From Comamonadaceae bacterium (GTDB lineage Bacteria; Pseudomonadota; Gammaproteobacteria; Burkholderiales; Burkholderiaceae_C): 64,000 bases of DNA. Below the pieces are notes generated by a model. That model was given only the letters and a program-made list of their open reading frames with translations, was not told the origin of the DNA and did no database searches. Of this stretch, positions 11,322-27,286 are shown one piece after another. The translations under genes and the position numbers were made by a program. The stretch is from positions 1-64,000 of the forward strand of contig CANFOS010000014.1 in NCBI GenBank assembly GCA_947448735.1, given 5' to 3'. Position 1 is the stretch's first letter. Each line of letters starts with the position of its first letter.

Positions 11322-11362
11322 ATCCGTCCTTAAAAAATTATTCATTCCAAGATTACACAATA

Positions 11363-11372
11363 TGTACGGACA
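11363..11372. promoter_or_regulatory. GntR-type operator, site A
   Basis: Core TGTACGGACA in the context AATATGTACGGACAAC, matching the cluster consensus TTGTMCGGACAWAT. It precedes the minus-strand Bug gene. Confidence 0.75.
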
Positions 11373-11474
11373 ACTGTAAAGTCGTAGCAAACCCTTGGGC
11401 GTCTTTTTTTTGCAAAACTGATAAACCAGCAAGTTTTAAAGTTCTCGGGTTGCGGTAAACCCGTTCAACACTGC

Positions 11475-11503
11475 TTGCTATCAAGCTGACGCTCATCCAT
11501 AAT
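11475..11503 (+). promoter_or_regulatory. Sigma-70-like promoter of the CMD gene
   Basis: TTGCTA, 17-bp spacer, CATAAT. The operator core at 11505 starts 1 bp after the -10 box, so a bound repressor would cover the transcription start. Confidence 0.5.
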
Positions 11504-11504
11504 T

Positions 11505-11514
11505 TGTATGGACA
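11505..11514. promoter_or_regulatory. GntR-type operator, site B
   Basis: Core TGTATGGACA, one base off the consensus, between the -10 box and the ATG at 11546. Confidence 0.68.
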
Positions 11515-11545
11515 ACGGGCGTTACTGTAGGCACATGATCCATCC

Positions 11546-12094
11546 ATGAACTTTCCTATTCTTCCTGTCGACCAGATCGGCTCTCCCCTGCGCGAGAAGA
11601 TCGGAACCATTGAAGCGCTGGGCGGCGACACGCGCTTCTTCCAGTTTGCCGCGCATGCGCCCCATGTGGTCCAGCTGTACTGGGTCCAGTTTTACCAGGA
11701 CGTCTTTTTCAAGGGGCTTTTACCAGTGCGTCTGAAGGAGATCGCTCGCCTGCGGCTCGCAGCGCTGAATGGCTGCTCGTTCTGCCAGGTCGGTGACAGG
11801 GCGTCAGCCATGGCCAACGGGTTGCTGGAAAGCGAAGTCGAGGCGCTTTTCGGCGACGGGCAGTCCCCTACTTTTTCAGCAGCCGAGCAGGCGAGCGCCG
11901 ATGCAGCCACGCGCATGTCGAATTTTGATGCCGAAGGGGTGCTCGACGACAGATTGAAGGCGACGCTGATGCAATGCTTCGAACCCGATGAACTGGTGGA
12001 ACTGTTTGCAGTCATTGGCATCCTCACCGGGATGGCACGCATGCTGCACGCGGCCGGCTTCATCACGCGCACCTGCGAAACGCGGCCCGCCTGA
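11546..12094 (+). CDS. Carboxymuconolactone decarboxylase (CMD/AhpD-like) family protein
   Basis: 182 residues. The AhpD-type motif is in LRLAALNGCSFCQVGDRAS, with the CxxC pair at about residues 74-77 and no distal His in the usual place (CSFCQ instead of CxxCxxxH). Family members are decarboxylases or thiol peroxidase partners. The CxxC favours a redox role. The gene is a single-gene unit under sites A/B, divergent from the Bug receptor and convergent with the racemase-like gene. Confidence 0.82.
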   Translation: MNFPILPVDQIGSPLREKIGTIEALGGDTRFFQFAAHAPHVVQLYWVQFYQDVFFKGLLPVRLKEIARLRLAALNGCSFCQVGDRASAMANGLLESEVEALFGDGQSPTFSAAEQASADAATRMSNFDAEGVLDDRLKATLMQCFEPDELVELFAVIGILTGMARMLHAAGFITRTCETRPA

Positions 12095-12201
12095 AACTCG
12101 GGCAATGCCAACGCTGCCCTTTGGCGGTAAGTTCTCCGTCTTGCGAACCGGCCGGTGAATCAAGGGCTTGCGCTGGAACGACTGACACCTTCCTGCTGAT
12201 A

Positions 12202-12945
12202 TCAGTGGCGCTCCAGCAGGCGGCCAAAGCCGCTTTGGCGGTCGGCGATGCCTGAGGCGCGCAGTGCGTGCCAGTAGATGGCAGTGTTGATCGCCACCAC
12301 CGGTTTCCTGAGCCATGTCTCGGCCTGGCCGGCCAACCTGGCCATGGCCAGGTTGGTGCCCACCTGCACCAGGCCATCGATGTCATCACCGTCGAGCTCG
12401 GCAAGCGCGTCGCGCAGTTGCGCCTCGGATACGTGGGCGATCTTCACCGGACTCTCGCAGCGCAGGCCTTTGATCCGCTTCACCTCGAAACCAGCCTCCT
12501 CGAAAAAGCGCACCACGTTGCGGTCGCCCACTGACTGGTAGGGCGTGACCACGGCGATCTTTTTCATGCCCAATGCCTGGAACGCGGCCTCACAAGCCTC
12601 GGAGCCCATGGACACCGGCAATCCGGTGCGTTCGTGCAGCTGCGCCTTCAGTTTGCGACTGGCGCCCAAGCCGTCCCAGAAGGTCTCTGCGGAAATGCCA
12701 AGCACCAGGCGGTCAGGCTCGCAGGACATCGCCGAGTCGACCGCCTCGTCCTGCGTGGCGGCAATCAGTGCGATCAGCCGTTCGAAGTCCGCGTCGTTGT
12801 GCAGCGGGATATTGGGGATGCGGATGCGGCTGACGTGGTTGGTCACGCCGGGCGGGCGCATGTCATCGAACTCGGGCTGCACGCTCGTGTTGGTCGAAGG
12901 GATCAGCACGGCGAACTTTTGGCGCCATCCAAGCGAATCGGACAT
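12202..12945 (-). CDS. Asp/Glu racemase superfamily protein (maleate isomerase/arylmalonate decarboxylase-like) without the cysteines
   Basis: 247 residues, the normal length. The N-terminal PSTNTSVQPEFD corresponds to the PSSNTxxE substrate loop of maleate cis-trans isomerases. In the family one or two Cys do the chemistry, in motifs like GCTS and SCTN. Here the first reads GISAETFW and the second VGTNLAM, so both Cys are replaced (by Ile and Gly in my alignment). The protein must use another mechanism or a different role (lyase or binding). A maleate, malonate or succinate-like substrate is the family expectation. It is under site C, divergent from the cupin/TRAP operon. Confidence 0.8.
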   Translation of the reverse strand: MSDSLGWRQKFAVLIPSTNTSVQPEFDDMRPPGVTNHVSRIRIPNIPLHNDADFERLIALIAATQDEAVDSAMSCEPDRLVLGISAETFWDGLGASRKLKAQLHERTGLPVSMGSEACEAAFQALGMKKIAVVTPYQSVGDRNVVRFFEEAGFEVKRIKGLRCESPVKIAHVSEAQLRDALAELDGDDIDGLVQVGTNLAMARLAGQAETWLRKPVVAINTAIYWHALRASGIADRQSGFGRLLERH

Positions 12946-13033
12946 GGGTCACTCCATCATAAAACCAGGGACAAGACGACAAAATTGTAGACATGGATCC
13001 CCGTGAAGCCGCTAGATTACTGTATATTAAGGT

Positions 13034-13043
13034 TGTACGGACA
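13034..13043. promoter_or_regulatory. GntR-type operator, site C
   Basis: Core TGTACGGACA in GGTTGTACGGACAAATAATT, in the divergent region between the racemase-like gene (minus) and the cupin/TRAP operon (plus). A TATATT box at 13023-13028 lies just upstream. Confidence 0.78.
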
Positions 13044-13170
13044 AATAATTTTGTTTGATTGTCGACAGGGGTGCCACTGGGCCAACGGCGCATGTTTGAC
13101 ATCGACGAAATCGCCGACGCGTATTGGCTTGGGCCGGGGCGTCGGGCAGCACGCACCCAAAGGACGCCAG

Positions 13171-13563
13171 ATGAACGTAGACCCGCGCGCGATAGCGCCC
13201 ACCCTGGGCTTCTTCACCACCCGTGACGCCATTGCGCCCGAACGCTTGGCCTCGGTCGAAGGCGTCAAGCCCAAGGGCAAAGTCGAGGTGCGCCGCGTGA
13301 TGGTGGGCAACGAGATCCTGATGCTGCATGTGCTGCGTGAAAAAGGCCTGGTCGACCCGTTGCACCAGCACGATGACCATGAAACCGTCGCCTACCTGAT
13401 CAAGGGCCGCTTGCGTCTGGTGATCGGCGGCAAGGAATTCATCGCTGAAGCCGGCACCTCCTGGATCCACCCGCGCGGCGTTGCGCACTTCAGCGAAGCA
13501 CTGGAGGACTGCGAGCAGCTTGAGATCAAGTCGCCCCCGCGCAAGACCTGGACCACTGAATAA
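13171..13563 (+). CDS. Small single-domain cupin, copy 1
   Basis: 130 residues. A cupin barrel with metal-ligand pattern HQHDDHETVAYLIKG followed by G(x)5HPRGVAHF, and a C-terminal SPPRKTW. The ATG at 13171 follows AAGGACGCCAG; an upstream extension in the same frame has no ribosome binding site. It is the first gene of the unit with the TRAP transporter. It is clearly a paralogue of the cupin at 30884, which ends this cluster. The function is unknown; such cupins can be small isomerases, dioxygenases or ligand sensors. Confidence 0.83.
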   Translation: MNVDPRAIAPTLGFFTTRDAIAPERLASVEGVKPKGKVEVRRVMVGNEILMLHVLREKGLVDPLHQHDDHETVAYLIKGRLRLVIGGKEFIAEAGTSWIHPRGVAHFSEALEDCEQLEIKSPPRKTWTTE

Positions 13564-13633
13564 GGCCAGCAGTTCGCCTGCAGGCACAAGCACAGGCACC
13601 TGCCGATAGCCCCCGTTTTTTGAGGAGATGAAG

Positions 13634-14206
13634 ATGACGACCTTGCTTCAATGGTGTTCAGGTGTTTCGCGCTGGCTGGCCTGGCTGGGCGGAGCCGCCC
13701 TGCTACTGAGTGCCGGCCTGATCTCGTTCGACGTGGTGTTCCGGGCCCTGTGGAAGGTCACCTACTTCGAGAGCTTCGAGTTGTCGACCTACGCTTTCGC
13801 GATCGCCACTGCCATGGGCATGTCCTATGCGCTGGTGACCAGAGCCCATATTCGCATCGAACTGCTGTACGTTGCGCTGCCGGAAAAATGGCGGGCATGG
13901 CTGGATGTGTGGTCCTACGCCGGGCTTTCGGTGGTCAGTGTGGTGCTGGTTTACTGGTGCGCGCAGACCGTGTTGGGCAACTGGCAGAGCGGTGCACGAT
14001 CGAACTCGTCGCTGTCCATACCGCTGATATGGCCGCAAGGTATCTGGCTGCTGGGCCTGGCCTGGCTGGCGCTGCTGTCCACCTTGTATGCGTTGCTCGG
14101 GCTCGCCAAATGCCTGCGCGGGCGCACGACCGACGCCAACCGGATGCTCGGGATGGCGTCGTTACAGGAAGAAATTGAGGCCGGCACCGGCCAGGAGTTG
14201 CGCTGA
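13634..14206 (+). CDS. TRAP transporter small permease (DctQ-type)
   Basis: 190 residues with four predicted membrane helices, the DctQ pattern. Typical segments are FDVVFRALWKVTYFESFELSTYAF and the polar DxxxRA at the end of helix 1. GAGGAG lies 6 bp before the ATG at 13634 (an ATG two codons earlier overlaps the box itself). Its stop overlaps the start of the large permease as ATGA, so the two are translationally coupled. Confidence 0.9.
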   Translation: MTTLLQWCSGVSRWLAWLGGAALLLSAGLISFDVVFRALWKVTYFESFELSTYAFAIATAMGMSYALVTRAHIRIELLYVALPEKWRAWLDVWSYAGLSVVSVVLVYWCAQTVLGNWQSGARSNSSLSIPLIWPQGIWLLGLAWLALLSTLYALLGLAKCLRGRTTDANRMLGMASLQEEIEAGTGQELR

Positions 14207-15501
14207 TGCTAAGCCTTACCCTGATCCTTTTGCTGGTGCTGGCCGGTAGCAGCCTGTTTGTGGCGGCAGTGCTGGGCGTGCTCGGTTATTCGCTGGGTAC
14301 TTTCTTTTCGCCATTTCCGCTGATACGCGGTCTGGGCGAAGTAGCGTGGAGTTCCAGCGCCGACTTCATCCTGGTTGCAGTACCGATGTTCATCCTCATG
14401 GGCGAATTGCTGCTGCGTTCCGGCGTGACCGATGCCATGTACGAGGCGCTGGACCGCTGGGTCGGCCACATCCCTGGTGGGTTGATGCACACCAACATCG
14501 CAGCGTCGGCGGTGTTCGCAGCCACCTCAGGCTCCAGCATTGCCACGGCGGCCACCATCGGCACAGTCTCGATCCCCAACATGGATCGCTACGGGTACGA
14601 CCGCGGCATGTTCCTGGGTACGATCGCCGCAGGTGGCACGCTGGGCATCCTGATCCCGCCGAGCATCAACATGGTGCTGTATGGCGCCATGTCCGATACG
14701 GCCGTCGGGGACCTCTACCTCGCAGCACTCATTCCCGGAGTGATGCTCGCGTGCATCTTCTCGGTCTATGTCTATTTGCGCTGCATCATGAACCCCTCGC
14801 TGGCGCCGCGCGGCAAGGTTTCCACCTGGAGTCAGCGCGTGCGGGCGTTGGTACACCTGCTGCCGCCGGTGATGCTGTTCCTGCTGGTGGTGGGCTCTAT
14901 CTATGCCGGCCTGGCCACGGCCACCGAGGCGTCGGCGCTGGGCGTGATGGGCGCGCTGGCACTGGTTGTCACGCGCGGGCGGTTGACGCTGGCGCTGCTG
15001 CTGCGCTCATTCGAGGGGACGGTGCGCACCACCGCCATGGTGATGGCGATCGTGATCGCGGCCTATTTCCTCAACTTCGTGTTGTCCACGCTGGGCCTGA
15101 CCGACGCCGCCGTCAAGTGGGTTGGTGAGTTGGGGTGGACGCCACTGGCGGTGATGCTGTCCATCATCGTGCTCTACATCTTTCTCGGCTGCTTTGTCGA
15201 GTCGCTCACACTGATGATTGCCACCACCCCAATCGTGGTGCCCATCATCAAGCAACTGGGTTACAGCCCGGTCTGGTTTGGGGTGGTGTTCGTGATCCTG
15301 ATCGAGACCGCACTGATCACCCCACCCATTGGGATGAACCTCTTTGTGGTGCAGTCGGTGCGCAAGGGGGGACCGTTCCGCGACGTGGTCATGGGGTCGC
15401 TGCCCTATGTGGTACTGATGTTCCTGCTGATCGTCGGCCTGATCGCGTTCCCTGGGCTCGCGCTCTGGCTGCCATCCGTTTTCGCTGCAAGCCGTGCGTG
15501 A
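14206..15501 (+). CDS. TRAP transporter large permease (DctM-type)
   Basis: 431 residues and about 12 hydrophobic segments, as expected for DctM. Family motifs include the N-terminal FILMGELLLRSGVTDAMY, ATSGSSIATAATIG and GTLGILIPPSINMVLYG. It is the Na+-dependent translocation subunit working with the DctQ subunit upstream and the binding protein downstream. The ligand is probably a small carboxylate or its amide or imide, inferred from the cluster. Confidence 0.95.
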   Translation: MLSLTLILLLVLAGSSLFVAAVLGVLGYSLGTFFSPFPLIRGLGEVAWSSSADFILVAVPMFILMGELLLRSGVTDAMYEALDRWVGHIPGGLMHTNIAASAVFAATSGSSIATAATIGTVSIPNMDRYGYDRGMFLGTIAAGGTLGILIPPSINMVLYGAMSDTAVGDLYLAALIPGVMLACIFSVYVYLRCIMNPSLAPRGKVSTWSQRVRALVHLLPPVMLFLLVVGSIYAGLATATEASALGVMGALALVVTRGRLTLALLLRSFEGTVRTTAMVMAIVIAAYFLNFVLSTLGLTDAAVKWVGELGWTPLAVMLSIIVLYIFLGCFVESLTLMIATTPIVVPIIKQLGYSPVWFGVVFVILIETALITPPIGMNLFVVQSVRKGGPFRDVVMGSLPYVVLMFLLIVGLIAFPGLALWLPSVFAASRA

Positions 15502-15534
15502 CACGGCCTGTTCTTTCAACCTGAGGAGAAGTCA

Positions 15535-16590
15535 ATGAAACTCGTACGCCGTTTTGTCTGGAGCGCTGCGGCGCTCGGTCTGTGTCTCGCCAGTGCGGTA
15601 CAGGCGCAGTCATCCCCCAAGGTCAGCCTGCAGGTCGTGGGCAACCTGGGCATCACCACCCAATACAAGGACCTCGAAGCACCGTTTTGGACCAAGGATA
15701 TCCCGGCCGCGACCGGTGGCGCGGTCACGGCCAGCATCAAGCCCTGGAACGAGATGGGCCTGAAAGGCCCCGAGGTCTTCAAACTGCTGAGCCAGGGCGT
15801 GTTCGATGTCGGGACCACTCAGCTCGGCTTCGTCGCCGGTGATGCCGCCATCAACGACGCGACCGACCTGGCCGGTGTGTCGCCCACGATCCAGACCTTC
15901 TGGGAAGTGACGACCGCCTTTCGTCCGGAGCTGACGCGCTACTATGAACAGCAGCTCAAGGTCAAGGTCATGGCCATGTACTCGTTCCAGGCGCAGGTGC
16001 TTTTCTGCCGCTCCGAGATCAAGAGCCTGGCCGACCTCAAGGGCCGCAAGGTGCGCACCTCGGGCGCCTCGCAGGCCGACTTCATCAGCTACTTCGGTGG
16101 CTCTGGCGTGAACATGGCTTTCGGCGAGGTGCAGCAGTCGCTGCAGAACGGCGTCATTGACTGCGCCATCACCGGCACCTTGGGCGGCTACAAAGCCAAG
16201 TGGTACGACGGTGCCAAGTACCTGTATGCGCTGCCTATCAACTGGGGCTCCGGCATGGCTGCTTTCAACCTGAACAGCTGGCGCAAGCTTGACGCGGCCA
16301 CCCAGAAGACCATCACCAGCGAATACGCGCGCTTGGAAAAGGCCATATTCGACCAGAACGTGCGTGAAAATGACCTCGGCCTGGCGTGCAACACCGGTGG
16401 AGCCTGCTCTGAAGGTCCAGCGGGCAAGATGGTGCTGGTCGCTCCCGCGGCCGGTGACGTCGAACTGCGCCGCAAGGCGCTGATTGAGCAGGTGCTGCCG
16501 CGCTGGGCGGCCCGTTGCGGCGCTGAGTGCGTCAAGAACTGGAACGCCACCGCTGGCAAGGTGGTCAACCTGACGGCCAAGGCCAACTGA
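15535..16590 (+). CDS. TRAP transporter periplasmic substrate-binding protein (DctP-type)
   Basis: 351 residues with a signal peptide ending in AVQAQ. The DctP-family core LADLKGRKVRTSGASQ and GEVQQSLQNGVIDCAITG is present; the Arg in KVRTSG is the conserved carboxylate-binding Arg of the family. Four Cys in the C-terminal third (ACNTGGAC, RCGAEC) could form disulphides in the periplasm, which is not common for DctP. A GAGGAG box lies in front of the ATG. It is the third TRAP subunit, 33 bp after the large permease. Confidence 0.92.
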   Translation: MKLVRRFVWSAAALGLCLASAVQAQSSPKVSLQVVGNLGITTQYKDLEAPFWTKDIPAATGGAVTASIKPWNEMGLKGPEVFKLLSQGVFDVGTTQLGFVAGDAAINDATDLAGVSPTIQTFWEVTTAFRPELTRYYEQQLKVKVMAMYSFQAQVLFCRSEIKSLADLKGRKVRTSGASQADFISYFGGSGVNMAFGEVQQSLQNGVIDCAITGTLGGYKAKWYDGAKYLYALPINWGSGMAAFNLNSWRKLDAATQKTITSEYARLEKAIFDQNVRENDLGLACNTGGACSEGPAGKMVLVAPAAGDVELRRKALIEQVLPRWAARCGAECVKNWNATAGKVVNLTAKAN

Positions 16591-17505
16591 TTGGCCAGTG
16601 CCAGCGACACCGGTGCCAACCACGGCATGCCTGTGTTGCTGATCCTGGTCATGGTGGCTTGGGGTGCCAACATCCCGGCCGTCAAGGCCCTGACTGGCGT
16701 CATGGACGTGATGTGGGTTGCTGCGCTGCGCATGCTGTTGGCCACGCTGGTGCTCACTGTAGGTCTGTGGTTGCGTGATCGTCGCCTACCCCGTCTGCCA
16801 GTGGCCCAGTGGTGCTATTTGGGCGCCACTTCGTTTCTGGTCGTTTACCTCAACCAGGTGATGTTCGCCCACGGCATGGGCCTGACCACCGCCACGAGTG
16901 CGTCACTGCTCATGGCCCTGATTCCCCCTCTGTCTGTGGCGGCGGGTGCCTTGCTGATGAGAGAGCGGGTGCAGCAGCGGGTCATGCTCGGCATCGCGCT
17001 GGGTTTTGCCGGTGTGACGCTGGTGGTGGTCAAGGCGCCTGGCGCACATTTAGGCATCACCGGGCTGGGGGAGGCGGTGCTTGTGCTGGGCTTGCTGGCC
17101 TTCGTCGGCGGCGGTCTTCTTATCCAGCGACTGGCGCAAGACATCGATGTGCTGGTGGTAGGCTGGTCGACCTATGGCATGGGGACGCTGATGCTGCTCG
17201 CACACGCCATGCTCGACGGTGACTGGGGACAGGCCCGAGCCGCCCTCGAAACACCTTCTGTGTGGGGGTACCTGCTGTATTCCGGGATGGTGGGCACGGC
17301 GCTGGCCAATCTGGCGTGGTACTTCGCGATCGGCCGCATCGGGCAGAGCCGGGCCAGCCCCTTTCTTTACTTGCTGCCGATCTTCGGCGTGTTGTCCTCT
17401 GCACTGATGCTGGGCGAGCCGCTGGGTTGGTGGCACCTGGTCGGCTTGTTGCTGGTGATTGCCGGTACACGGCTGGGCACGGCACCGCGCATCGCGCCTT
17501 TGTAG
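16591..17505 (+). CDS. EamA/DMT-family membrane transporter
   Basis: About 304 residues with ten predicted membrane helices in two EamA repeats, the RhaT/YdcZ-like drug/metabolite transporter fold. The TTG at 16591 touches the TGA of the previous gene and has AAGG before it. The first ATG, at 16627, would remove only 12 polar residues and is the alternative start. As the last gene of the TRAP unit it might export a product of the pathway. The substrate is unknown. Confidence 0.8.
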   Translation: MASASDTGANHGMPVLLILVMVAWGANIPAVKALTGVMDVMWVAALRMLLATLVLTVGLWLRDRRLPRLPVAQWCYLGATSFLVVYLNQVMFAHGMGLTTATSASLLMALIPPLSVAAGALLMRERVQQRVMLGIALGFAGVTLVVVKAPGAHLGITGLGEAVLVLGLLAFVGGGLLIQRLAQDIDVLVVGWSTYGMGTLMLLAHAMLDGDWGQARAALETPSVWGYLLYSGMVGTALANLAWYFAIGRIGQSRASPFLYLLPIFGVLSSALMLGEPLGWWHLVGLLLVIAGTRLGTAPRIAPL

Positions 17506-17529
17506 GTGGTGACCCTCGTACCTTGGTCT

Positions 17530-18948
17530 TCAGGCGGCAGCGGCCAGCAGCGCCACCAGCGGGGCGGCGTCAGGTGCCTCGGGCAGGCGATTGAGCCACG
17601 CGATCATTGCTTCCATGTGCTGGTCCTGCGCGGCGCTGCGCTCGCGCGTCAGGTGCCAGCACAAGCGGAACTTGTCCTCGCGTTCCTGCGCGTTCAACGG
17701 CAGCAGCGGGTGCCCCCAGGCGTAAGGAATCTCGCGCGTGATGCGCTCGCCGCTGCTGAGCAACAGCGTCAGCGTCTGAGGATAGAAAGCGTTTGCGTTG
17801 GGATGCGGCTTTTCTTCGGTGACCACGCGCATCGCCAATGCTTCCAGCACCGGGTCACCCAGACGCTCGGGCACGAAAGTGGTGGGATCAACACCACCGA
17901 ACACGACTTCTGCTGCAGCCACGAAAGGGATACACAGGCGCGCATAGTTGGGGGGCGGCTGGTGAACCATGGGACGGCCCACCAGACGCATTCCTAACGG
18001 TGGCAGCGTGACGTGTAGGGACTGCACGCGCGCCAGCGCGTTGGACGCCGTGAGGCCCAGCTCCTGCCGCAGACCCCGCATGGCATGGATCACGCCGTGT
18101 GTCACCCGCCCGCTGGGAAAGGGCTTGTGCGACAGCTGCGTCACTTTCCAAGGGTCACCCATGGCGTCCAGCGCCGCAGGCAGCTCGTGGTCGTGCTCGA
18201 AGTTGGTGAAGAAGCCAAATCGGCCACCCAGCAGCTCGACCGGCGCGGTGATGCCCACGCGTGCCATGTCGTGGGCTTGCAGCGCATTGCGCGCAGCAAA
18301 CCCCATCTGCATGGCCAGCATCATCGAGCCTTCCTCGTGGGCCTGCATCGGGCCGCACATCTGCGAGTAACCAATGCCGTAGGCGTAACGCAATTGCTCG
18401 CGAGGCAGCGGGTCCAGGCATGCTAGGGCGGCCAGCGCCGAGAACACGCCGGTGGTGGCCGGGCGGAAAAAGAACATCGCGTTGCGCGTTGCACCCGACA
18501 GTGTGCAGGAAACCTCCAGTGCCACGGTGAAAGCGCGGATCAGGTCGCGGCCACTGGGCGGGCGGCCCAGCGCGGTCAGTTCGTCCACCTTGGCCATCAG
18601 CGCGCCGAAGATCGGCGGTGTGGGCAGGATCACGCCAGGTTCAAAGACGCAGTCGTATTCCAGCGCATGGCACTGGTAACCATTGATCAGCGCCGCCACC
18701 GGGCCTGGCGCCTGCAGGCCGGTGTTCCAGACCGAGGCAGCGGCCTCGCCCGGGGCGCCCCAGCGTGCCGATGTGGCCATGAGGGCGTCCATCCGGGGGG
18801 CCAGTTTTCCGGCGCAGGCCACGCCCACGGTATCGAGGAAAAACACCGTTGCCGCGCTCACCGCTTCGGGGGGCAGGTCGTCGAAGCGGGTGCGCTCTAT
18901 GAGGTCGAGAATGCGCTCGATCGGATCGTGATAGTGCTTGTCGGTCAT
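17530..18948 (-). CDS. MmgE/PrpD family protein
   Basis: 472 residues. This family includes 2-methylcitrate dehydratase, cis-aconitate decarboxylase and iminodisuccinate epimerase, all acting on tri- or dicarboxylates. Typical parts are the N-terminal VFFLDTVGVACAG, LINGYQCHALEYDCVFEP (position of the GAxxHxxDxDD motif of PrpD) and KPFPSGRVTHGVIHAM. The family His-Asp motif is weakly kept here (ALEYDCVF). The gene overlaps the enoyl-CoA hydratase upstream by ATGA. The reaction cannot be fixed from sequence. Confidence 0.85.
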   Translation of the reverse strand: MTDKHYHDPIERILDLIERTRFDDLPPEAVSAATVFFLDTVGVACAGKLAPRMDALMATSARWGAPGEAAASVWNTGLQAPGPVAALINGYQCHALEYDCVFEPGVILPTPPIFGALMAKVDELTALGRPPSGRDLIRAFTVALEVSCTLSGATRNAMFFFRPATTGVFSALAALACLDPLPREQLRYAYGIGYSQMCGPMQAHEEGSMMLAMQMGFAARNALQAHDMARVGITAPVELLGGRFGFFTNFEHDHELPAALDAMGDPWKVTQLSHKPFPSGRVTHGVIHAMRGLRQELGLTASNALARVQSLHVTLPPLGMRLVGRPMVHQPPPNYARLCIPFVAAAEVVFGGVDPTTFVPERLGDPVLEALAMRVVTEEKPHPNANAFYPQTLTLLLSSGERITREIPYAWGHPLLPLNAQEREDKFRLCWHLTRERSAAQDQHMEAMIAWLNRLPEAPDAAPLVALLAAAA

Positions 18949-19742
18949 GGCTCTGTACCCTGATGGTGGGAGGGAAAATCGGCCGGGCGCTTCTGCAGGA
19001 AGGCGTCGCGCCCCTCAGTGAAGTCCCGACCGTGGAACAGGTCGAGAAAGGCTTGCGCAGCTTGGGACAGTCCGACCTGGTCGTTCGCCGTCACAGCACG
19101 CAGGCCCTGCTTGATAGCCCGCGTACCATCGACCGAGTTGGCTGCGATAGCCCGCAGCAAGGCATCGGCCTGCGCGGCAAACTCCGCCACCGGCAAGACC
19201 TGGTTGACCAGCCCGCAGCCCAAGGCGCGCTCGGCTGTCCACAACTGGCCACCCATCAGCAATTCGCTGGCCGGGGCAAGGCCGCAAGCGCGCACCAGAC
19301 GGCGCAGATCGTCAGGGTGGTAGGACAGTCCGAGCCGGGCCGGGGTCACTGCAAAACGCGCCTGCGCGCTGGCGATGCGCAGGTCGCAGGCCACGGCCAG
19401 CGCAACGCCGCCGCCGACACAGGGGCCGTCGATCAGCGCCACCACCGGAAGCGGGCAGCGCTCCAGCGCGTCGACCGCGTCCTGGATCTCGCGCGCCGCC
19501 ACGGCACCTTCTCCAGGGGTGGTGTAGGTGTGTTCGAACTCACTGATGTCGGCGCCGGCCGCAAACAGGCCTGGCTGCACTCCCTGCAGTGTGAGCAGCC
19601 GGGTCTGCGATTGGGCAATGGCAGCGGCGACCAGGCCCGGCATGGCACGCCACATGGCGCGCGAGAACGCATTCTTGCGCGCCGGGTGGTTGATCACGAT
19701 GCGGGCGACCGGGCCGGTCTGGTGCAGCTCAAGCAGTTCCAT
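18945..19742 (-). CDS. Enoyl-CoA hydratase/isomerase family protein
   Basis: 265 residues, crotonase fold. The oxyanion-hole segment FAAGADISEFE and the second loop GPCVGGGVALAVACDLRIAS are clear. In the latter, the position of the first catalytic Glu of hydratases is not obviously kept, so isomerase, hydrolase or lyase activity is possible. The ATG at 19742 starts the family N-terminus MELLELHQTGPVARIVIN; an upstream in-frame extension crosses the operator and was rejected. It is the first gene of the unit with MmgE/PrpD, under site D. Confidence 0.85.
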   Translation of the reverse strand: MELLELHQTGPVARIVINHPARKNAFSRAMWRAMPGLVAAAIAQSQTRLLTLQGVQPGLFAAGADISEFEHTYTTPGEGAVAAREIQDAVDALERCPLPVVALIDGPCVGGGVALAVACDLRIASAQARFAVTPARLGLSYHPDDLRRLVRACGLAPASELLMGGQLWTAERALGCGLVNQVLPVAEFAAQADALLRAIAANSVDGTRAIKQGLRAVTANDQVGLSQAAQAFLDLFHGRDFTEGRDAFLQKRPADFPSHHQGTEP

Positions 19743-19774
19743 GGGTTGTCGTGGTGACCGCGGATGAACAGCGG

Positions 19775-19802
19775 TTGCGTTGTGGTTGCCAGCGATGATA
19801 AT
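19775..19802 (+). promoter_or_regulatory. Sigma-70-like promoter of the deacetylase/CoA-transferase unit
   Basis: TTGCGT, 16-bp spacer, GATAAT, with the operator core starting at 19804, directly after the -10 box. Predicted by eye. Confidence 0.5.
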
Positions 19803-19803
19803 A

Positions 19804-19813
19804 TGTCCGTACA
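19804..19813. promoter_or_regulatory. GntR-type operator, site D
   Basis: Core TGTCCGTACA on the plus strand (TGTACGGACA on the minus) in AATATGTCCGTACAAC, between the enoyl-CoA hydratase (minus) and the deacetylase-like gene (plus). Confidence 0.8.
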
Positions 19814-19892
19814 ACTTTGCAAGGCCTGCGTGCGGTTGTTTGTTGGCGGTGCAACCAGCGCTCAGGTATGTCGTCTGTCGGGGAGGAATTTC

Positions 19893-20780
19893 ATGCGTTA
19901 CCAGATCGGTCCCAAACCCTATGCCTGGCCCGGCGACGCCCGGCTGGCCCTGTCGGTGGTTGTCAACGTCGAGGAAGGGGCCGAAGCCAACATCCTCGAT
20001 GGCGACAAATACCCCGAGGCGGTCGACGAGATGGGTATTGCCCTCAAGCGCTCAGTGCGCAACCATGGCAACGAGTCCAACTACCGGTATGGCATCAACC
20101 GCGGCGCACCGCGTGTGATGCGGTTGCTGGAGCGCTACGGCATACGTGCCACCGTCACCGGCTGCGCCCTGGCCCTTGAGCGAGCGCCGGAACTCACGCG
20201 CGAAATCGTGCGTCAAGGCCACGAAGTCACCTCGCATGGCTACCGTTGGGCGCACCAGTTCACCATGAGCGAGGACGACGAGCGGGCGTACATCCGCAAG
20301 GCTGTGGCCTCAATCACGCAGACCACCGGGCGCCGGCCCCAGGGATGGTTGTCGCGTTACCTCACCACCGACAACACGCGCCGCCTGCTGATCGAGGAAG
20401 GTTTCCTCTACCACATGGATGATTTTTCCGACGATGCGCCGTTTTGGGACTCACGCGCGGGCAAGCCCATTGTGGTTTTGCCCTACCAGCTCGACAACAA
20501 CGACATGAAGATGTGGTCCGAGGGATCCTACACGCCAGACCAGTGGCTCAAGTACGCCAAAGACAACCTCGACTGGGCGCTGTCCGAGGGCGAACACGAG
20601 GTCAACGTGATGTCGATCGGTCTGCACCTGCGCATCATCGGACGGCCTGGTCGCATCGGGGCCCTGGAGCAATTTCTGGCCTACGCAGCCGAGCGCGCCG
20701 CCCAGCCGCGCGGGGTGTGGATCGCCACCCGCGAGGAGATCGCCCGGCACTTTGCCCACCACGTGCCCTGGCAGCCCTGA
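19893..20780 (+). CDS. Polysaccharide-deacetylase (CE4/PuuE-like) hydrolase, candidate cyclic imidase
   Basis: 295 residues, NodB-homology fold. The metal-binding His motif reads HEVTSHGYRW at about residue 110, and the N-terminus MRYQIGPKPYAWPG resembles PuuE-type allantoinases and cyclic imide hydrolases rather than sugar deacetylases. No signal peptide, so it acts in the cytoplasm on a small C-N substrate. GGGAGGAA precedes the ATG at 19893. Together with the amidase at 22148 it would give ring opening of a cyclic imide followed by half-amide hydrolysis. The family assignment is firm; the substrate is inference. Confidence 0.8.
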   Translation: MRYQIGPKPYAWPGDARLALSVVVNVEEGAEANILDGDKYPEAVDEMGIALKRSVRNHGNESNYRYGINRGAPRVMRLLERYGIRATVTGCALALERAPELTREIVRQGHEVTSHGYRWAHQFTMSEDDERAYIRKAVASITQTTGRRPQGWLSRYLTTDNTRRLLIEEGFLYHMDDFSDDAPFWDSRAGKPIVVLPYQLDNNDMKMWSEGSYTPDQWLKYAKDNLDWALSEGEHEVNVMSIGLHLRIIGRPGRIGALEQFLAYAAERAAQPRGVWIATREEIARHFAHHVPWQP

Positions 20781-20781
20781 G

Positions 20782-22026
20782 ATGGACTGGGCACGCTGGC
20801 TGCGGGCGGGTGACCACCTGGTCTGCTCGCACATGTCCAGCGAGCCGGTAGCCCTGCTTCAGTCGCTGGCGCACTCAGCGCCATCGTTGCCCCTGCACCT
20901 GATGCTGGGTGTGCCTTTTTCCGACGCCGCCGCAGCACTGCCGTCCAGTTGCGACATCACCGTCTACGGCGGCATGGGCAGTGCCGCGCGGCTTGCGCTG
21001 GCGCGGCCGGTGCACTTGAGCCTGTTGCGCTACAGCCTCTGCGGGCAGGTTTACCAGCAAGGCCTGTGGCCTGCCGATGTGGTGCTGTTGAGCCTGGCGC
21101 GGGACGCCGACGGAAGCCTGTACCTGGGGGCCTCGCACGGGCCAGCGCTGGCAGCGGCACGGCGCGCTCGGCACGTCATTGCCGAGGTCAATGCGCAGGC
21201 GCCCTGCTTGACCGGCGCACGCTGGCCCGACGACATCCCGCTGGCCGCCGTGGTCGAGGCAGACCACGCGCCGGCGCCGCTGCGCGAGGCTGCGCCGACC
21301 GAGGCCGAGCAAGCCATTGCGCGCCATGTGGCAGCACTGGTGCCCGACGGCGCCTGCGTGCAGGTCGGCATCGGAGCCCTGCCATCGGCGATGCTGGCTG
21401 CGCTGTCGTCGCACCGCCATCTGGGTGTGCACAGCGGCCAGTACACCGACAGCATGCAGGCGCTGGTCGACGCCGGCGCGGCGGACCACTCCCGCAAGAC
21501 GCTGGACGCGGGCGTGGCGGTGGTGGGCAGCGTTGTGGGCAGCAATGCGCTGTACCGCACTGCGCATCAGCATCCTGGTATTTGCCTGCGCGCGCCGGGC
21601 TACACCCACGATGCGGCGGTGATCGCAGGCCTGGACGACTTCTTCAGCCTCAACAGTGCGATCGAGGTCGATCTGCTGGGCAACGTCAATGCCGAGACCG
21701 TGACTGCGCAAGACGGCCGGTGGCGCTACGTGGGAGGCGTTGGCGGCCTGCCGGATTTCGTGCGGGCGGCACAGTGCGCGCGCCGTGGGCAGGCGGTGAT
21801 TGCGCTGCAGTCGCGGTCAGCGCGCCAGCAACCGCGCATCGTGGCCCGACTGAGCGGCCCCTGCACCGTGGCGGCCAGTGATGCCGACCTTGTCTGCACC
21901 GAGTACGGCGTGGCGCGCCTGCGCCATGCGAGTCTGGAGCAGCGTGTGCGCAGCATGCTGGCCATTGCCCATCCCGAAGACCGCGATGCGCTGGCCGCAG
22001 CGGCGCACGGTCTCGGCCTGTTGTAA
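20782..22026 (+). CDS. Acetyl-CoA hydrolase/4-hydroxybutyrate CoA-transferase family protein
   Basis: 414 residues. The segments VQVGIGALPSAML, LGVHSGQYTD and LNSAIEVDLLGNVNAE match Cat1/Cat2-type CoA-transferases, the last holding the Glu that carries CoA. Family members activate succinate, 4-hydroxybutyrate, itaconate or acetate. It starts 2 bp after the stop of the deacetylase-like gene, so its acid substrate is probably made by hydrolysis of the same compound. Itaconate CoA-transferases are in this family, which fits the CitE and MaoC genes of the cluster. The exact acid is open. Confidence 0.87.
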   Translation: MDWARWLRAGDHLVCSHMSSEPVALLQSLAHSAPSLPLHLMLGVPFSDAAAALPSSCDITVYGGMGSAARLALARPVHLSLLRYSLCGQVYQQGLWPADVVLLSLARDADGSLYLGASHGPALAAARRARHVIAEVNAQAPCLTGARWPDDIPLAAVVEADHAPAPLREAAPTEAEQAIARHVAALVPDGACVQVGIGALPSAMLAALSSHRHLGVHSGQYTDSMQALVDAGAADHSRKTLDAGVAVVGSVVGSNALYRTAHQHPGICLRAPGYTHDAAVIAGLDDFFSLNSAIEVDLLGNVNAETVTAQDGRWRYVGGVGGLPDFVRAAQCARRGQAVIALQSRSARQQPRIVARLSGPCTVAASDADLVCTEYGVARLRHASLEQRVRSMLAIAHPEDRDALAAAAHGLGLL

Positions 22027-22147
22027 GGACATAAATGCTGCATTGACTTGGCTTGTTGGACTATCAGGGCCACGGCTAGGCCTAAGAAGATCATCTGGAT
22101 GACCTTCGCCCCCTCCTGCATGGTCCTTCCTGCAGGGTGGTGCCTGC

Positions 22148-23455
22148 TCAGGGGCTGCGCGGCGGGTTGGGTGTCAGGGCGTTTTCGAGGACGGCGGACA
22201 GTTGCAACAGGGCCAGGTCGTGGCCGCGATGACCCACCACCTGCAGGCCGACCGGCAACGCCCCGGCTGGTACGGGCAAAGGCAGGCTGATGGCCGGCGC
22301 GCCATTCATGTTGGCCATCGCGGTGAAATCGGCCTGGTTGGCTGGCGCAGACGCGTCCATCGCAAATGCCACCTGTGGCGCGGTTGGCAACAAAACAGCG
22401 TCCAGCCCCTGGACAAGGATGTCGAGCCTTTCGCCGGTGCGCGCCACCTGTGCCACGGCCTGCCCCAGGTCGAGCGCCGACTTGCGCTCGATGTAGCGCA
22501 TCATGGCGAGCAGGTCGGCGGGAAGTACCTCGGGGCGTTCACGTAGCAGCGGAGCCAGGCGATGGTGCAGTTCAGCTTCGCACAGCAGCAGGCCAGCACG
22601 GCGGCTGGCACCGAGATCGCTGGCAGCCAGGTGCAGCGGCAAGGTGTCCATCGGCAGGACCTGTTGGAGTTGCGCGATGGCGGCATCAAAAGCGATGCAG
22701 ACCGCCTCGCTGGCGCCTAGCGCGGGCAGATCCTGCACCACGCCGATGCGCCAGCGCGCCGCCACCGGCCGCGGCGCCGACTGCAGGTGGGGAGCGGCGA
22801 TGCGCAACGCGGCAATGACGTCCTCCACACTTCGGGCCAGCAGACCAACGTGGTCCAGCCAGCGGCACAGGGTGTCGACGCCGTCAAGGCCCAAGGTCTC
22901 ATGGCTGGGTTTGAACCCGACCACACCGCAGTACGCGGCGGGGATTCGCACCGAGCCCATGGTGTCGCTGCCCAGTGCCAAGCCACACAGGCCAGCAGCC
23001 ACAGCCGCGCCCGAGCCGCCGCTCGAACCACCGGGCGTCAAGCCTGCACGCACCGGATTGAAACAGTTGCCGTAATCGGGGTTATGGTTGCTTGCACCGA
23101 GTGCCACCGGATGCATATTGAGCTTGCCCAGGCACGCCAGGCCCGCCGCACGCAGGCGTGCCACCACCGTGGCATCCCGCGACGCCTTGTGGGACAGTGC
23201 CCGCAGGCCCGAAGCGGTGGGCAGACCGGCAACGTCAAAGTTGTCCTTGACCGCAAAGCTGCTGCCCGCCAGCGGCGACTCCCCCCGACCCGGGGTCGGC
23301 GCCGGTGCGCGTGCGATATAGGTGTTGAGCGCCGGTTGCCAATGGTCGATCGCTTCGAGCTGCCATTGCAGCAGGGCTGCGGCGCTGATGTTCCCGGTCG
23401 CCACCGCGCGCGCCTGGTCGCTGGCACTGGCGAGCAGCAAGGGGTATGTCGCCAT
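22148..23455 (-). CDS. Amidase signature family hydrolase, candidate half-amidase
   Basis: 435 residues. The Ser-Ser-Lys triad is visible: Lys in SSFAVKDNFDVAG, then GGSSGGSGAAVAAG, and the nucleophile Ser in GSDTMGSVRIPAAYCGVVG. The ATG at 23455 follows the ligase stop by 5 bp; the frame is open further upstream but that part lies inside the ligase gene. In the cluster context it could release ammonia from a half-amide of a dicarboxylic acid. AtzF/allophanate hydrolase-like or general amidase roles are alternatives. Confidence 0.87.
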   Translation of the reverse strand: MATYPLLLASASDQARAVATGNISAAALLQWQLEAIDHWQPALNTYIARAPAPTPGRGESPLAGSSFAVKDNFDVAGLPTASGLRALSHKASRDATVVARLRAAGLACLGKLNMHPVALGASNHNPDYGNCFNPVRAGLTPGGSSGGSGAAVAAGLCGLALGSDTMGSVRIPAAYCGVVGFKPSHETLGLDGVDTLCRWLDHVGLLARSVEDVIAALRIAAPHLQSAPRPVAARWRIGVVQDLPALGASEAVCIAFDAAIAQLQQVLPMDTLPLHLAASDLGASRRAGLLLCEAELHHRLAPLLRERPEVLPADLLAMMRYIERKSALDLGQAVAQVARTGERLDILVQGLDAVLLPTAPQVAFAMDASAPANQADFTAMANMNGAPAISLPLPVPAGALPVGLQVVGHRGHDLALLQLSAVLENALTPNPPRSP

Positions 23456-23460
23456 GCGGC

Positions 23461-24849
23461 TCAGCCAAGCTTGCGCAGACGGACCGGTTTTTGCCGGGTC
23501 TCGACGCCGGTCAGCTCCGACAGCGACTTGAGCGGACACAACTGCACCTGCACGTCGACGCCGAGCCGGTGTTTGAGCCGGTCGTGGTACTGCTGCGACA
23601 GCGCCTGGTCGGCCGGCAACTCGCATTCGACCTTCACCAGCAGGTCCTCGCGCCCATTGGCGTCGCGCGACAGTTCACACAGGTACTCGCCACGAAATCC
23701 CGGCATGTCGGCCAGGATGGACGACAGCGCCTGCGGAAACACATTGATGCCGCGCAGCTTGACCATGCTGTCGCTGCGGCCCATGAATCCCTCCATGCGC
23801 CGAAACGGCAGGCCCAGTTGCGACACTCCGGGCAACAGCCGGGTCAGGTCGTGGGTATTGAACCGGATAATGGGAAAGATGTCTTCGGTGAACAGGCAGG
23901 TGACGACCAGGTCGCCGACCCCGCCATGCGGCACGGCGGCGCCGGTCTCGATGTCGCATATCTCGATCCAGTGGGCGTCTTCCATCACATGCATGCCATC
24001 GTGATCGGTGCCCTCGGCAGCAATCAGGCCGGTGTCGCCCACGCCGTACCAGTCGAACAATTCGGCGCCACCCCAGGCCTCGGACAAGGCCTGGCGGGCG
24101 TCCTTGGCCAGGTGGCCCGATATCATGCGCACGGGAATGTCACGACCCGGCTCCAGCCCTTGTTCACGGGCAACGTCGGCCAGGCGCTTGATGTAGTCAG
24201 CAAAACCCACGATCACCGTCGCGCCGAAGTCGCGCATGAACTCGACCTGCTTGACCGAGGGTGTCTCGACACCGGTTCCGGCGGCGAAGAACATCGCCGC
24301 AGTGTGGTGGATCACCGCCTCGCGCACGTAGTGCCCGCCGTTGACTGGCCCGTGGCCGTAGACCGAATGCACCATGTCGGTGGGGCGCAGACCCTGCATT
24401 TGGTAGGCACGGGCCAGCATCAGTGCGTGCACCTCGCGAGTGCGCGGGCTAAAGAGCAGTGGTTGCGGCCGACCCGTGGTGCCGCTGGTAGCGTGCAGGA
24501 TCATGGGGTAGATCTTGCCGTCGATGGGAATGTCGCGCCCGTGGTGATCCCCCAGCGGCGGGTGGCGCTCGATCGACGCCATCACCTCGTCCTTGCCAAA
24601 GCTGGGCAGTCGGGCAATGTCGTCGACGCTTCGGATGTCGCCCGGCTGGACACCCGCCTGGCCCCACAGACGCTGGTAGAAAGGCAACTGCCAGGCGCGC
24701 TTGAGCTGGCGCGCGAACAGGCGGTTTTGGTGTGCGCGCAATGCATCGGCGCCCATGCCCCTGAATCTGGCCATGAAGGCATCGCCGACCGGAAATGCCT
24801 CCATCAGCGCTTTGGTGTCGACGACTTCGTGGTAAGTGGTGTGCTGCAT
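23461..24849 (-). CDS. PaaK-like acyl-CoA ligase (phenylacetate-CoA ligase family)
   Basis: 462 residues, adenylate-forming enzyme. The P-loop ATSGTTGRPQPL is at about residue 119, EIxD-like adenine segment WYGVGDTGLIAAE follows, then MGRSDSMVKLRGINVFP, which marks the PaaK/F390-synthetase branch rather than acetyl-CoA synthetases. It activates a carboxylic acid with ATP and CoA. No ribosome binding site is evident before the ATG. The operator site E lies 18 bp upstream. It is followed by the amidase. Confidence 0.87.
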   Translation of the reverse strand: MQHTTYHEVVDTKALMEAFPVGDAFMARFRGMGADALRAHQNRLFARQLKRAWQLPFYQRLWGQAGVQPGDIRSVDDIARLPSFGKDEVMASIERHPPLGDHHGRDIPIDGKIYPMILHATSGTTGRPQPLLFSPRTREVHALMLARAYQMQGLRPTDMVHSVYGHGPVNGGHYVREAVIHHTAAMFFAAGTGVETPSVKQVEFMRDFGATVIVGFADYIKRLADVAREQGLEPGRDIPVRMISGHLAKDARQALSEAWGGAELFDWYGVGDTGLIAAEGTDHDGMHVMEDAHWIEICDIETGAAVPHGGVGDLVVTCLFTEDIFPIIRFNTHDLTRLLPGVSQLGLPFRRMEGFMGRSDSMVKLRGINVFPQALSSILADMPGFRGEYLCELSRDANGREDLLVKVECELPADQALSQQYHDRLKHRLGVDVQVQLCPLKSLSELTGVETRQKPVRLRKLG

Positions 24850-24866
24850 GAAGGAGGAAAGTTACT

Positions 24867-24876
24867 TGTCCGGACA
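24867..24876. promoter_or_regulatory. GntR-type operator, site E (autoregulatory)
   Basis: A perfect palindrome TGTCCGGACA, flanked by CT and TATT, between the ligase gene (minus) and the GntR regulator gene (plus). This suggests that the regulator controls itself and the divergent ligase/amidase unit. Confidence 0.82.
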
Positions 24877-24954
24877 TATTGTGATCCCGGGTTGTGCAAA
24901 AATCAAGACGACTGCTGTGCCTTTTCAGCATCGTGTACCCAACCCATCAACACC

Positions 24955-25683
24955 ATGACCAGCGAACCCTACTACCTTCAGATGTACCACGCGCTGGCCG
25001 AAAAGATCAAGGATGCACGGTATGCCGTAGGCACCACCTTGCCGACGGAACGCGAGCTGTGCGAGAGCTTCGGCGTCAGCCGTCACACCGCACGCGAGGC
25101 GCTGCGTCAGCTTGAGCAGCGCGGACTGATCACGCGCCGCCAGGGCTCGGGCTCGACGGTCGTGGCCCGCACACCACCGGTGCGTTATGAGCAGAGCATC
25201 CAGAGCATTGACGACCTGATGCAGCAGGGCAGCGCGAGCCGGCTGCAGGTGCTGGGTGGAGAGGAAATGGTGGCCGACGCCAACCAGTTCGCCAGCCAGA
25301 TCACCCTGATGTCCAAATTGCCATGTATCCGGGTGCGGTCGATACGGTACCTGCGCAACGATGTGCGACCGCTGGCGCTGGTGGATGTCTACGTGGCAGT
25401 GCGCACCAAGACGCAGGCGCGCAGGCTGCTGGGCCCTGACAGCGCAGCGCAGGAGATCGTGGCCACAGTCGATCCGTCGCGTCTGGACCGCATCGAGCAG
25501 GCCTTCAATGCCATCAACCTGGACGAGAACGCAGCCAAGTTGCTGCATGTGACGACCGGCGATGCTGCGTTCCAGACCATCCGCAACTATTTTGACCTCA
25601 ACGGTCGGCTGGTGGTCGTGGCGCATTCACTCTACCAGGGCCAGCTGTTCACATACGCCTCCACCCTGCGGCGCCACGGCTGA
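24955..25683 (+). CDS. GntR-family (HutC subfamily) transcription regulator of the cluster
   Basis: 242 residues. The winged helix-turn-helix is at about residues 5-70, with the GntR signature LPTERELCESFGVSRHTARE and the wing RQGSGSTV. The rest is a UTRA-type effector domain (IRVRSIRYLRNDVRPLALVDVYV), which places it in the HutC subfamily, usually repressors released by a pathway metabolite. It is the only regulator gene in the 10-31 kb cluster, and six copies of one palindrome lie at the promoters there, so it is the best candidate to bind them. The frame is open far upstream, but the ATG at 24955 fits the family N-terminus. Confidence 0.88.
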   Translation: MTSEPYYLQMYHALAEKIKDARYAVGTTLPTERELCESFGVSRHTAREALRQLEQRGLITRRQGSGSTVVARTPPVRYEQSIQSIDDLMQQGSASRLQVLGGEEMVADANQFASQITLMSKLPCIRVRSIRYLRNDVRPLALVDVYVAVRTKTQARRLLGPDSAAQEIVATVDPSRLDRIEQAFNAINLDENAAKLLHVTTGDAAFQTIRNYFDLNGRLVVVAHSLYQGQLFTYASTLRRHG

Positions 25684-25805
25684 CACCGCAAGGGCGCAGG
25701 CCACGTTGGCGCGCCGTCTGCCAGACGGCCCAGCGGACGCCAGCGCATCACGACCTGAGCGACAGGTCCACGCACGCCGGCAACCACCGGACAAAGGCCG
25801 CCAAG

Positions 25806-25835
25806 TTGACCTTACTGGCCCTGAGACCTTATACT
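25806..25835 (+). promoter_or_regulatory. Sigma-70-like promoter of the CitE operon
   Basis: TTGACC, 18-bp spacer, TATACT. The perfect operator palindrome begins on the very next base, so it would overlap the transcription start. Confidence 0.62.
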
Positions 25836-25845
25836 TGTCCGGACA
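25836..25845. promoter_or_regulatory. GntR-type operator, site F
   Basis: Perfect palindrome TGTCCGGACA in ACTTGTCCGGACATATT, nearly the same 17 bases as site E, 23 bp before the CitE start codon. Confidence 0.82.
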
Positions 25846-25868
25846 TATTTCAAGTCCAGCGTACTGCA

Positions 25869-26711
25869 ATGCCAACACCCCCACGCACCCTGCTTTTTGT
25901 CTCGGCTGAACGGCCGGAGCGGTTCGACAAAGCCATGGCCAGCGGCGCCGATGTGGTGTGTATAGACCTCGAAGATGCGGTCCATCCTGATCGCAAGGAC
26001 GCCGCGCGCAGCGCAGCCATGGCCTACCTGAAGGGGCGTACCAAGGGTTCCACTTCCGGTCCGCGTCTGGCTGTGCGGATCAACGCCAGCAAGACCCTGG
26101 CCGGTTTGCGCGATGTGATGGCCGTGGCCGTGGCCGATATCCACATGGATGTGCTGCTGCTTCCGAAGGCCGAATCGTCCCACGAACTGGAAGCTATGCA
26201 CGCGTGGCTGCCGCATGCATTTACCGAGTTGGTGGCCTTGGTTGAGACCCCGCTGGGCGTGGAGCGCGCCAATGAGATTGCAGGGGCGGCACGGTACGCA
26301 GCGCCGAGGCTGACGGCGCTGATGCTGGGCGGCGGTGACCTTTCCATGGAGCTGGGCGCCCGCTTTGACTGGGACGGCCTGCTCAGCGCGCGCGGCCGCC
26401 TGGTGAATGCAGCGCGGGCGTGGGGACTGCAGGCCTGGGATGTGCCGTGCATCGACATCGCCGACGAAGCCGGCCTGGTACAGGAGACGCGGCGTGCACT
26501 CGACCTCGGTTTCGACTGCAAAGCGGCCATCCATCCGGCCCAGATCGCACCCATGCACGGCGTGTTCCGGCCCGACCAGCGCGAGGTCGATTGGGCGCGC
26601 GGTGTCTGTTCAGCTGCGGCTGGTGGCCAAGGTGCATTTTTGTACGAGGGCAGGATGGTGGATGCACCCCTGCTCAGGCGCGCCGAGCGCATTCTTCAAC
26701 GCGCGCAATAA
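25869..26711 (+). CDS. HpcH/HpaI aldolase (CitE-like) family lyase
   Basis: 280 residues, the typical CitE length. Visible family motifs are the Mg-ligand DLEDAV (about residue 36), the catalytic Arg region AVRINAS, ALVETPLGVE and the C-terminal KAAIHPAQIAPM. Members cleave malyl-CoA, beta-methylmalyl-CoA, citramalyl-CoA or citryl-type thioesters. Standing before a MaoC hydratase and an acyl-CoA dehydrogenase, it is probably the carbon-carbon cleavage step of the pathway. The ATG at 25869 follows operator F. The product, such as glyoxylate, pyruvate or acetyl-CoA, depends on the unknown substrate. Confidence 0.88.
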   Translation: MPTPPRTLLFVSAERPERFDKAMASGADVVCIDLEDAVHPDRKDAARSAAMAYLKGRTKGSTSGPRLAVRINASKTLAGLRDVMAVAVADIHMDVLLLPKAESSHELEAMHAWLPHAFTELVALVETPLGVERANEIAGAARYAAPRLTALMLGGGDLSMELGARFDWDGLLSARGRLVNAARAWGLQAWDVPCIDIADEAGLVQETRRALDLGFDCKAAIHPAQIAPMHGVFRPDQREVDWARGVCSAAAGGQGAFLYEGRMVDAPLLRRAERILQRAQ

Positions 26712-26741
26712 CGCGCACCCAACCCAACCCAGGAGACGTCC

Positions 26742-27260: not shown

Positions 27261-27286
27261 CGCAACCCACCCACCTAGGAAACGCC

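Follow-up and report, generated by a model that had tools for sequence, protein, structure and literature searches.

A HutC-subfamily regulator and six putative operators in a catabolic gene cluster of a freshwater Comamonadaceae bacterium

Six palindromes in a catabolic gene cluster

We analyzed a 64,000-nucleotide stretch of DNA (the window; contig CANFOS010000014.1, positions 1 to 64,000) from the freshwater Comamonadaceae bacterium GCA_947448735.1, whose genome comprises 3.83 Mb in 62 contigs. Within the window, a catabolic gene cluster at 10341–31279 carries six short palindromes, which are very probably the operators of a GntR-type regulator encoded at 24955–25683. The genes of the cluster, in which CoA stands for coenzyme A and HTH for helix-turn-helix, are as follows.

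10341–11324, minus strand: Bug/TctC solute receptor (Bug1)
11546–12094, plus strand: carboxymuconolactone decarboxylase-family protein (CMD)
12202–12945, minus strand: arylmalonate decarboxylase/maleate isomerase-like protein (Amdase-like)
13171–13563, plus strand: small cupin
13628–17505, plus strand: TRAP transporter and EamA transporter (DctP receptor by Pfam; two permeases by eye from the translation)
17530–19742, minus strand: enoyl-CoA hydratase and MmgE/PrpD protein
19893–22026, plus strand: PuuE/allantoinase-like deacetylase-fold hydrolase and acetate-type CoA-transferase
22148–24849, minus strand: amidase and PaaK-like CoA ligase
24955–25683, plus strand: regulator of 242 aa with GntR HTH (PF00392), UTRA domain (PF07702) and helix motif SRHT
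25869–31279, plus strand: CitE/RipC-like lyase, MaoC hydratase, acyl-CoA dehydrogenase, two CaiB CoA-transferases and cupin

The six palindromes, all of the form TGT-N4-ACA, were recovered by pattern scans at the positions given by the first-pass annotation.

Putative operator A, 11363–11372, TGTACGGACA: centre 44 bp upstream of Bug1, read on the minus strand
Putative operator B, 11505–11514, TGTATGGACA: weakest of the six; one base past the CATAAT −10 box of CMD
Putative operator C, 13034–13043, TGTACGGACA: between Amdase-like (minus) and the cupin/TRAP operon (plus)
Putative operator D, 19804–19813, TGTCCGTACA: between enoyl-CoA hydratase (minus) and PuuE-like (plus); GATAAT −10 box one base upstream on the plus strand
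Putative operator E, 24867–24876, TGTCCGGACA: between CoA ligase (minus) and the GntR regulator (plus); ligase −10 box (CACAAT) one base upstream, minus strand
Putative operator F, 25836–25845, TGTCCGGACA: immediately past the TATACT −10 box of the CitE operon

Sites E and F have identical cores, as that annotation had described, and of the others, for which it gave differences of one or two bases, A, C and D depart from this core by one base and B by two. The longer pattern TTGTMCGGACAWAT is matched exactly on one strand at C, D, E and F, with one mismatch at A and two at B. GT and AC stand 4 nt apart in all six sites, the spacing of the HutC subfamily, and five of them have CG at the centre. 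The claim that a site marks every promoter proved right for the units of the cluster, and all six sites are intergenic. By our own gene starts, non-coding DNA makes up 1336 of the 20939 bases (6.4%) of 10341–31279, and the chance of six out of six falling there would be 0.064^6 = 7e-8 if the sites were independent. The Bug1/CMD sites lie 142 bp apart, and the same divergon carries a pair of sites in two relatives (L019, L084).

A symmetric matrix built from the six sites scored them at 19.7–26.7. Elsewhere in the window the highest score was 11.0, with no convincing seventh site; the first-pass annotation had likewise noticed no other copy there. A place at 22022 (TGTAAGGACA, score 10.7) was rejected, being in the terminal part of a coding gene. 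Against a first-order Markov background, scores of at least 19 are expected 0.01 times per 20 kb, a figure that is partly circular because the matrix was made from the same sites; for scores of at least 17, the corresponding background is 0.026. Taken by themselves, loose consensus scans are weak evidence, at or near chance, and the rarity depends on the extended site. With up to three mismatches, the window gave 14 matches against a shuffle mean of 8.2 (2 of 100 shuffles reached 14), and a core scan with up to two mismatches gave 21 against 29.7.

The palindrome in the genome and the genus

Genome-wide, the exact 14-base pattern WTGTMCGKACAWNT occurs at five places, all within the cluster; allowing one mismatch brings in 11505 and three places outside the cluster (on C2, C4 and C9). 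Many copies away from the cluster, which the first-pass annotation had named as a check on its regulon, were not found in this search, and the regulon reading was not refuted. For the short core TGTNCGNACA there is no enrichment (22 places versus 61 for the reversed control). Five of its places are in the cluster, and 10 of the 17 others had their flanks scored: one, C9:102722, reached 20.2, and the remaining nine at most 12.9.

C9:102722 (L038:5723) is a lone palindrome, TTTGTACGCACAAA, ahead of an enoyl-CoA hydratase/Bug/CaiB-like operon that adjoins a LysR-like gene (by eye). The gene has four orthologues in 87 genomes of the genus. The one in G085 (98% identical), a genome in which no regulator was found, has GATTTGTGTGCACAAATA with a score of 12.9; nothing scoring at least 10 was found at those in G073, which lacks the regulator, or in G069 and G083, which carry it. 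We rejected this place as a seventh target because the site is not kept in the two regulator-bearing relatives, whose orthologues are only 63% identical; it is probably the site of another regulator.

The 87 genomes, some of them incomplete, were searched for the regulator at an E value of 1e-40. The five that bear it have 9, 6, 10, 7 and 6 exact matches to the pattern on both strands, and G080, in which the regulator is present only as a fragment at a contig end, has 6. The other 81 genomes, without the regulator, have 0–3 each. A single match that recurs among them is the start of lon (ATG TCC GGA CAA; L067:4823), with the same 18-mer in L068–L072. A clpX-like gene lies alongside the match in L079, and inspection placed those in L076 and L082 at other sites, inside genes. 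We treated the matches of regulator-free genomes as coding coincidence, on the genes inspected at L067 and L079. The mimicry of the operator by the lon start in genus members is a trap for motif scans.

Joint occurrence of regulator and palindrome in other bacteria

The first-pass annotation had assigned the cluster its own HutC-type GntR regulator, and both domains of the protein are above their cut-offs: the N-terminal GntR HTH at 79 bits (cut-off 27) and the C-terminal UTRA effector domain at 30.5 bits (cut-off 23.8), the latter being the weakest among the six UTRA matches of the genome. Its best NCBIfam model is HutC (TIGR02018), the histidine-utilization repressor. The score of 93.3 bits is well below the cut-off of 220, and no hut genes were recognized among the annotated genes of the cluster; we therefore regard the protein as HutC-type but not as a histidine repressor. 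It is 94% identical to a homologue in a metagenome-assembled genome of Limnohabitans sp. Rim8.

The decisive evidence is comparative and lies in the joint presence of regulator and palindrome across relatives. We compiled 17 homologue loci (L016, G046, G030, L019, G083, G069, G448, G123, G530, G613, G752, G490, G694, G664 and plasmids L112–L114, the last being three of 29 plasmid records with a homologue), spanning 94 to 31% identity and Burkholderiales to Alphaproteobacteria. A Clostridium locus (L020), 44% identical over 63 helix-region residues only and with palindromes scoring up to 16.0, was excluded. At 16 of the 17 loci, a palindrome scoring at least 17 lies near the homologue. A centre-blind count of WTGTN4ACAW over these loci (379 kb) gave 59 matches, 51 with CG and none with TA at the centre, versus 3 for the mirrored control WACAN4TGTW in the same DNA. 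This count supersedes a hand-made list of 53 sites (CG 50, TG 2, CC 1), which leans on the CG-rich matrix and omits five rows scoring 13–15 (one each in L016, L033, L048, L051 and L084) as well as L030, L077, L078 and L086.

The sites of relatives stand ahead of the ligase/regulator divergon or of PuuE-like, CitE, MaoC, TRAP, CMD or CaiB units, varying by locus. Sites lie between CitE and MaoC in Azospirillum and between CaiB and MaoC in Pseudosulfitobacter; that of Paraburkholderia separates a pcaB-annotated gene from the regulator and has different metabolic genes alongside. Ligase and amidase were both found in seven of the eight Burkholderiales loci whose regulators are 34–42% identical. 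The Bug1/CMD pair of G046 sits on a separate 80-kb contig, more than 30 kb from the contig ends, and still has its operator (L084); the regulator would therefore act in trans there. The proposed single regulon under the cluster's own regulator is well supported by co-conservation of regulator and palindrome, helix identity and operator/−10 geometry (see below), but, as G046 shows, it is not always local.

Further operator-like sequences were seen in distant relatives. Those at L050:10929 and L048:9713 fall on the start codon of a PrpD-like gene (MSGQ), a situation also found at lon. A strong site at L050:18054 (27.9) precedes a long gene that is outer-membrane receptor-like by eye, which suggests a different uptake route in that relative.

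Recognition helix and operator centre

The recognition helix reads SRHT in 17 of 17 homologues, the three plasmid-borne ones and that of G030 among them. We take its His to be position 39 in the numbering of PMC4494728, through an alignment with E. coli FadR. In that study, position 60 is FadR Lys67, and position 39 correlates with the two bases at the operator centre. HutC proteins most often carry Met there, Asp prefers G/C, and His is listed with the donors that prefer G in general, not for this position. The same study gives the HutC consensus as GTMTAKAC, with GT and AC 4 nt apart and a TA centre that is a tendency with published exceptions.

The present system resembles the known HutC subfamily (HutC, DasR, NagR/YvoA and PhnF) in its GntR HTH plus UTRA architecture, its GT-N4-AC palindrome, its shared sites in divergent promoters and the location of its genes near the regulator. 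It differs in the operator centre, which is GTMCGKAC here, and in having His in place of the most frequent Met. CG occupies the centre in five of the six window sites and in 51 of the 59 centre-blind matches, among which the published TA centre is absent. Hence, the earlier remark that the half-site spacing fits such operators holds for GT-N4-AC, whereas the centre departs from the norm.

From the helix and operator sequences, the His of SRHT probably reads the operator centre. His occurs at this position in 2 of the 25 GntR helices of the genome. The second belongs to another UTRA regulator (C12:31421, helix NRHT). A scan for upstream palindromes took in UTRA/GntR regulators from 30 of the 69 matches of one search, namely those that had loci. 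In the 400 bases upstream of 32 distinct regulators without the His (33 rows, one gene occurring twice), no CG-centred GT-N4-AC palindrome was present; the three His regulators scanned comprise that of the window, which has one, and L143 (= L049) and L101, which do not. As these two lack the palindrome despite the His, the His/CG pairing is at most suggestive as a rule. If it holds, the published HutC recognition code would gain a rule open to testing.

Promoter geometry and proposed mechanism

Four promoters, those of CMD, the PuuE-like gene, the ligase and CitE, have a candidate −10 box that ends 0–1 bases ahead of the operator. Promoter alignments were made for the last three. The −10 box and operator form an invariant block with diverging flanks in the CitE (4 sequences) and PuuE-like (5 sequences) promoters; in the ligase promoter (5 sequences), the operator is kept save for one position and the −10 box varies. 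Since the operator would lie over the transcription start at four promoters, repression by occlusion is the simplest model, and simple repression is likely.

Based on these data, we propose the following mechanism. A regulator dimer would bind TGTMCGKACA (GT-N4-AC with a CG centre). Starting 0–1 bases past the −10 box, the operator would cover the transcription start of the CMD, PuuE-like, CoA ligase and CitE units; at the remaining promoters it lies within the promoter region. In the absence of substrate, the regulator would keep RNA polymerase off all units and probably off its own gene as well. Binding of a pathway intermediate to the UTRA domain would then release the regulator, and uptake and catabolism would be induced together. 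Autoregulation, as proposed in the first-pass annotation, is plausible: the site centre at 24867 lies 83 bp upstream of the regulator gene within a shared divergon, and in L034 and L036 the regulator is encoded in an operon, downstream of a site and a CoA-transferase gene. The proposal has against it the lack of a convincing promoter for the regulator gene.

Taken together, these comparisons make it very probable that the six palindromes are operators through which the HutC-subfamily regulator represses the units of the cluster. Several observations weigh against this assignment. The regulator gene has no clear promoter. Sigma-70-like promoters in 10300–26000 numbered 3 against 2.7 expected by chance, though all three touch sites. 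One homologue with the same SRHT (L049 = G490, 34% identical) has no site in its 20 kb, and C12:31421 has no CG-centred palindrome upstream. The sole site scoring at least 17 in L048, and one of two adjacent sites in each of L050 and L051 (in L051 by the identical 18-mer), coincide with a start ATG TCC GGA CAA; coding may therefore explain part of the pattern. Finally, the sites of close relatives are not independent.

An activating role for the regulator, alone or combined with repression, is improbable. The sites of Bug1 and enoyl-CoA hydratase, which lie in the −35/spacer region of candidate promoters (that of Bug1 being uncertain), would suit it, and the title of PMC6141813 presents the HutC-type NagR of Bacillus thuringiensis as a dual regulator. 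By contrast, at four promoters the operator sits on the presumed start site, and abstracts describe B. subtilis NagR, DasR and HutC as repressors. It is slightly less probable still that another regulator of the genome reads the palindromes and that the GntR gene is a bystander target. Candidates would not be lacking among the 25 GntR-type HTH matches and 6 UTRA proteins of the genome, C12:31421 with its His being one; such a reader would not account for the joint presence of this regulator and the palindrome at 16 of 17 loci, for 0–3 exact matches in the 81 regulator-free genomes versus 6–10, or for the CG-centred palindrome being absent upstream of all 32 non-His regulators. Chance or coding-driven palindromes retained through relatedness of close species, to which the lon start in many regulator-free genus members and the near-chance loose scans might point, are very hard to reconcile with six of six intergenic sites, an expectation of 0.01 per 20 kb at score 19, 59 matches versus 3 in the mirrored control, and sites recurring in rearranged clusters at 31–42% regulator identity.

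Predicted pathway and relation to known systems

Repression of the cluster by the regulator would place the following functions under joint control: uptake (Bug, TRAP), hydrolysis (PuuE-like protein, amidase), CoA activation (PaaK-like ligase, two CaiB and one acetate-type CoA-transferase), and later steps by acyl-CoA dehydrogenase, a mesaconyl-CoA hydratase-like MaoC and the CitE/RipC-like lyase. This order of enzymes suits a branched dicarboxylate of the itaconate/methylsuccinate type that is freed from an imide or amide. The pathway, as read from the gene content, probably handles an amide- or imide-linked branched dicarboxylic acid; that its substrate in fresh water is a maleimide-type product of tetrapyrrole breakdown is speculative.

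Among the specific enzyme models inspected for the cluster proteins, none reached its cut-off. Degradation of itaconate and citramalate employs a RipC-type lyase, a MaoC hydratase and a CaiB transferase. The cluster shares these with its CitE/RipC-like lyase, MaoC and CaiB proteins; it differs in adding an amidase, a PuuE-like hydrolase, a PaaK-like ligase and two transporter types, and its lyase scores 231.5 bits with the RipC itaconate lyase model (NF038242; cut-off 375). The PuuE-like protein (295 aa) has the polysaccharide-deacetylase fold of PuuE allantoinase, its named PDB relative being PuuE 3cl6, but stands at 256.9 bits with the allantoinase model (TIGR03212; cut-off 424.6), and no purine genes were recognized in the cluster. 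It is presumably also akin to a cyclic imide hydrolase.

A broader reading is tentative and rather less likely than its opposite: the SRHT-marked HutC clade, from Burkholderiales to Azospirillum and Roseobacteraceae, would read GTMCGKAC and mostly control an undescribed pathway that opens an imide or amide precursor with the PuuE-like hydrolase and amidase, activates it with CoA, and cuts it to central metabolites through acyl-CoA dehydrogenase, MaoC and CitE.

The kind of system is known and its control ordinary; the new points are the regulon itself, the centre of its operator and the breadth of its conservation. By title and opening of the abstract, none of the papers listed by literature searches concerns this regulon, and supplementary tables might list a related operator group; in literature text, TGTCCGGACA appeared in 18 papers, all with subjects that are eukaryotic by title, several concerning p53. 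The analysis ties an uncharacterized regulator to a defined operator and a set of target genes, such that a binding assay or reporter could screen for the substrate, and the operator could guide annotation of the same pathway across other Proteobacteria.

Two neighbouring gene groups were also noted. The unit directly beyond the cluster (31643–34030), at which the window scan placed no operator, holds an NTF2-like gene (by eye), a second Bug receptor and a solute-binding-like gene. Beside the distant cluster L048, positions 16690–18769 encode a pair of large and small aconitase-family subunits (Pfam), perhaps an alkylmaleate hydratase.

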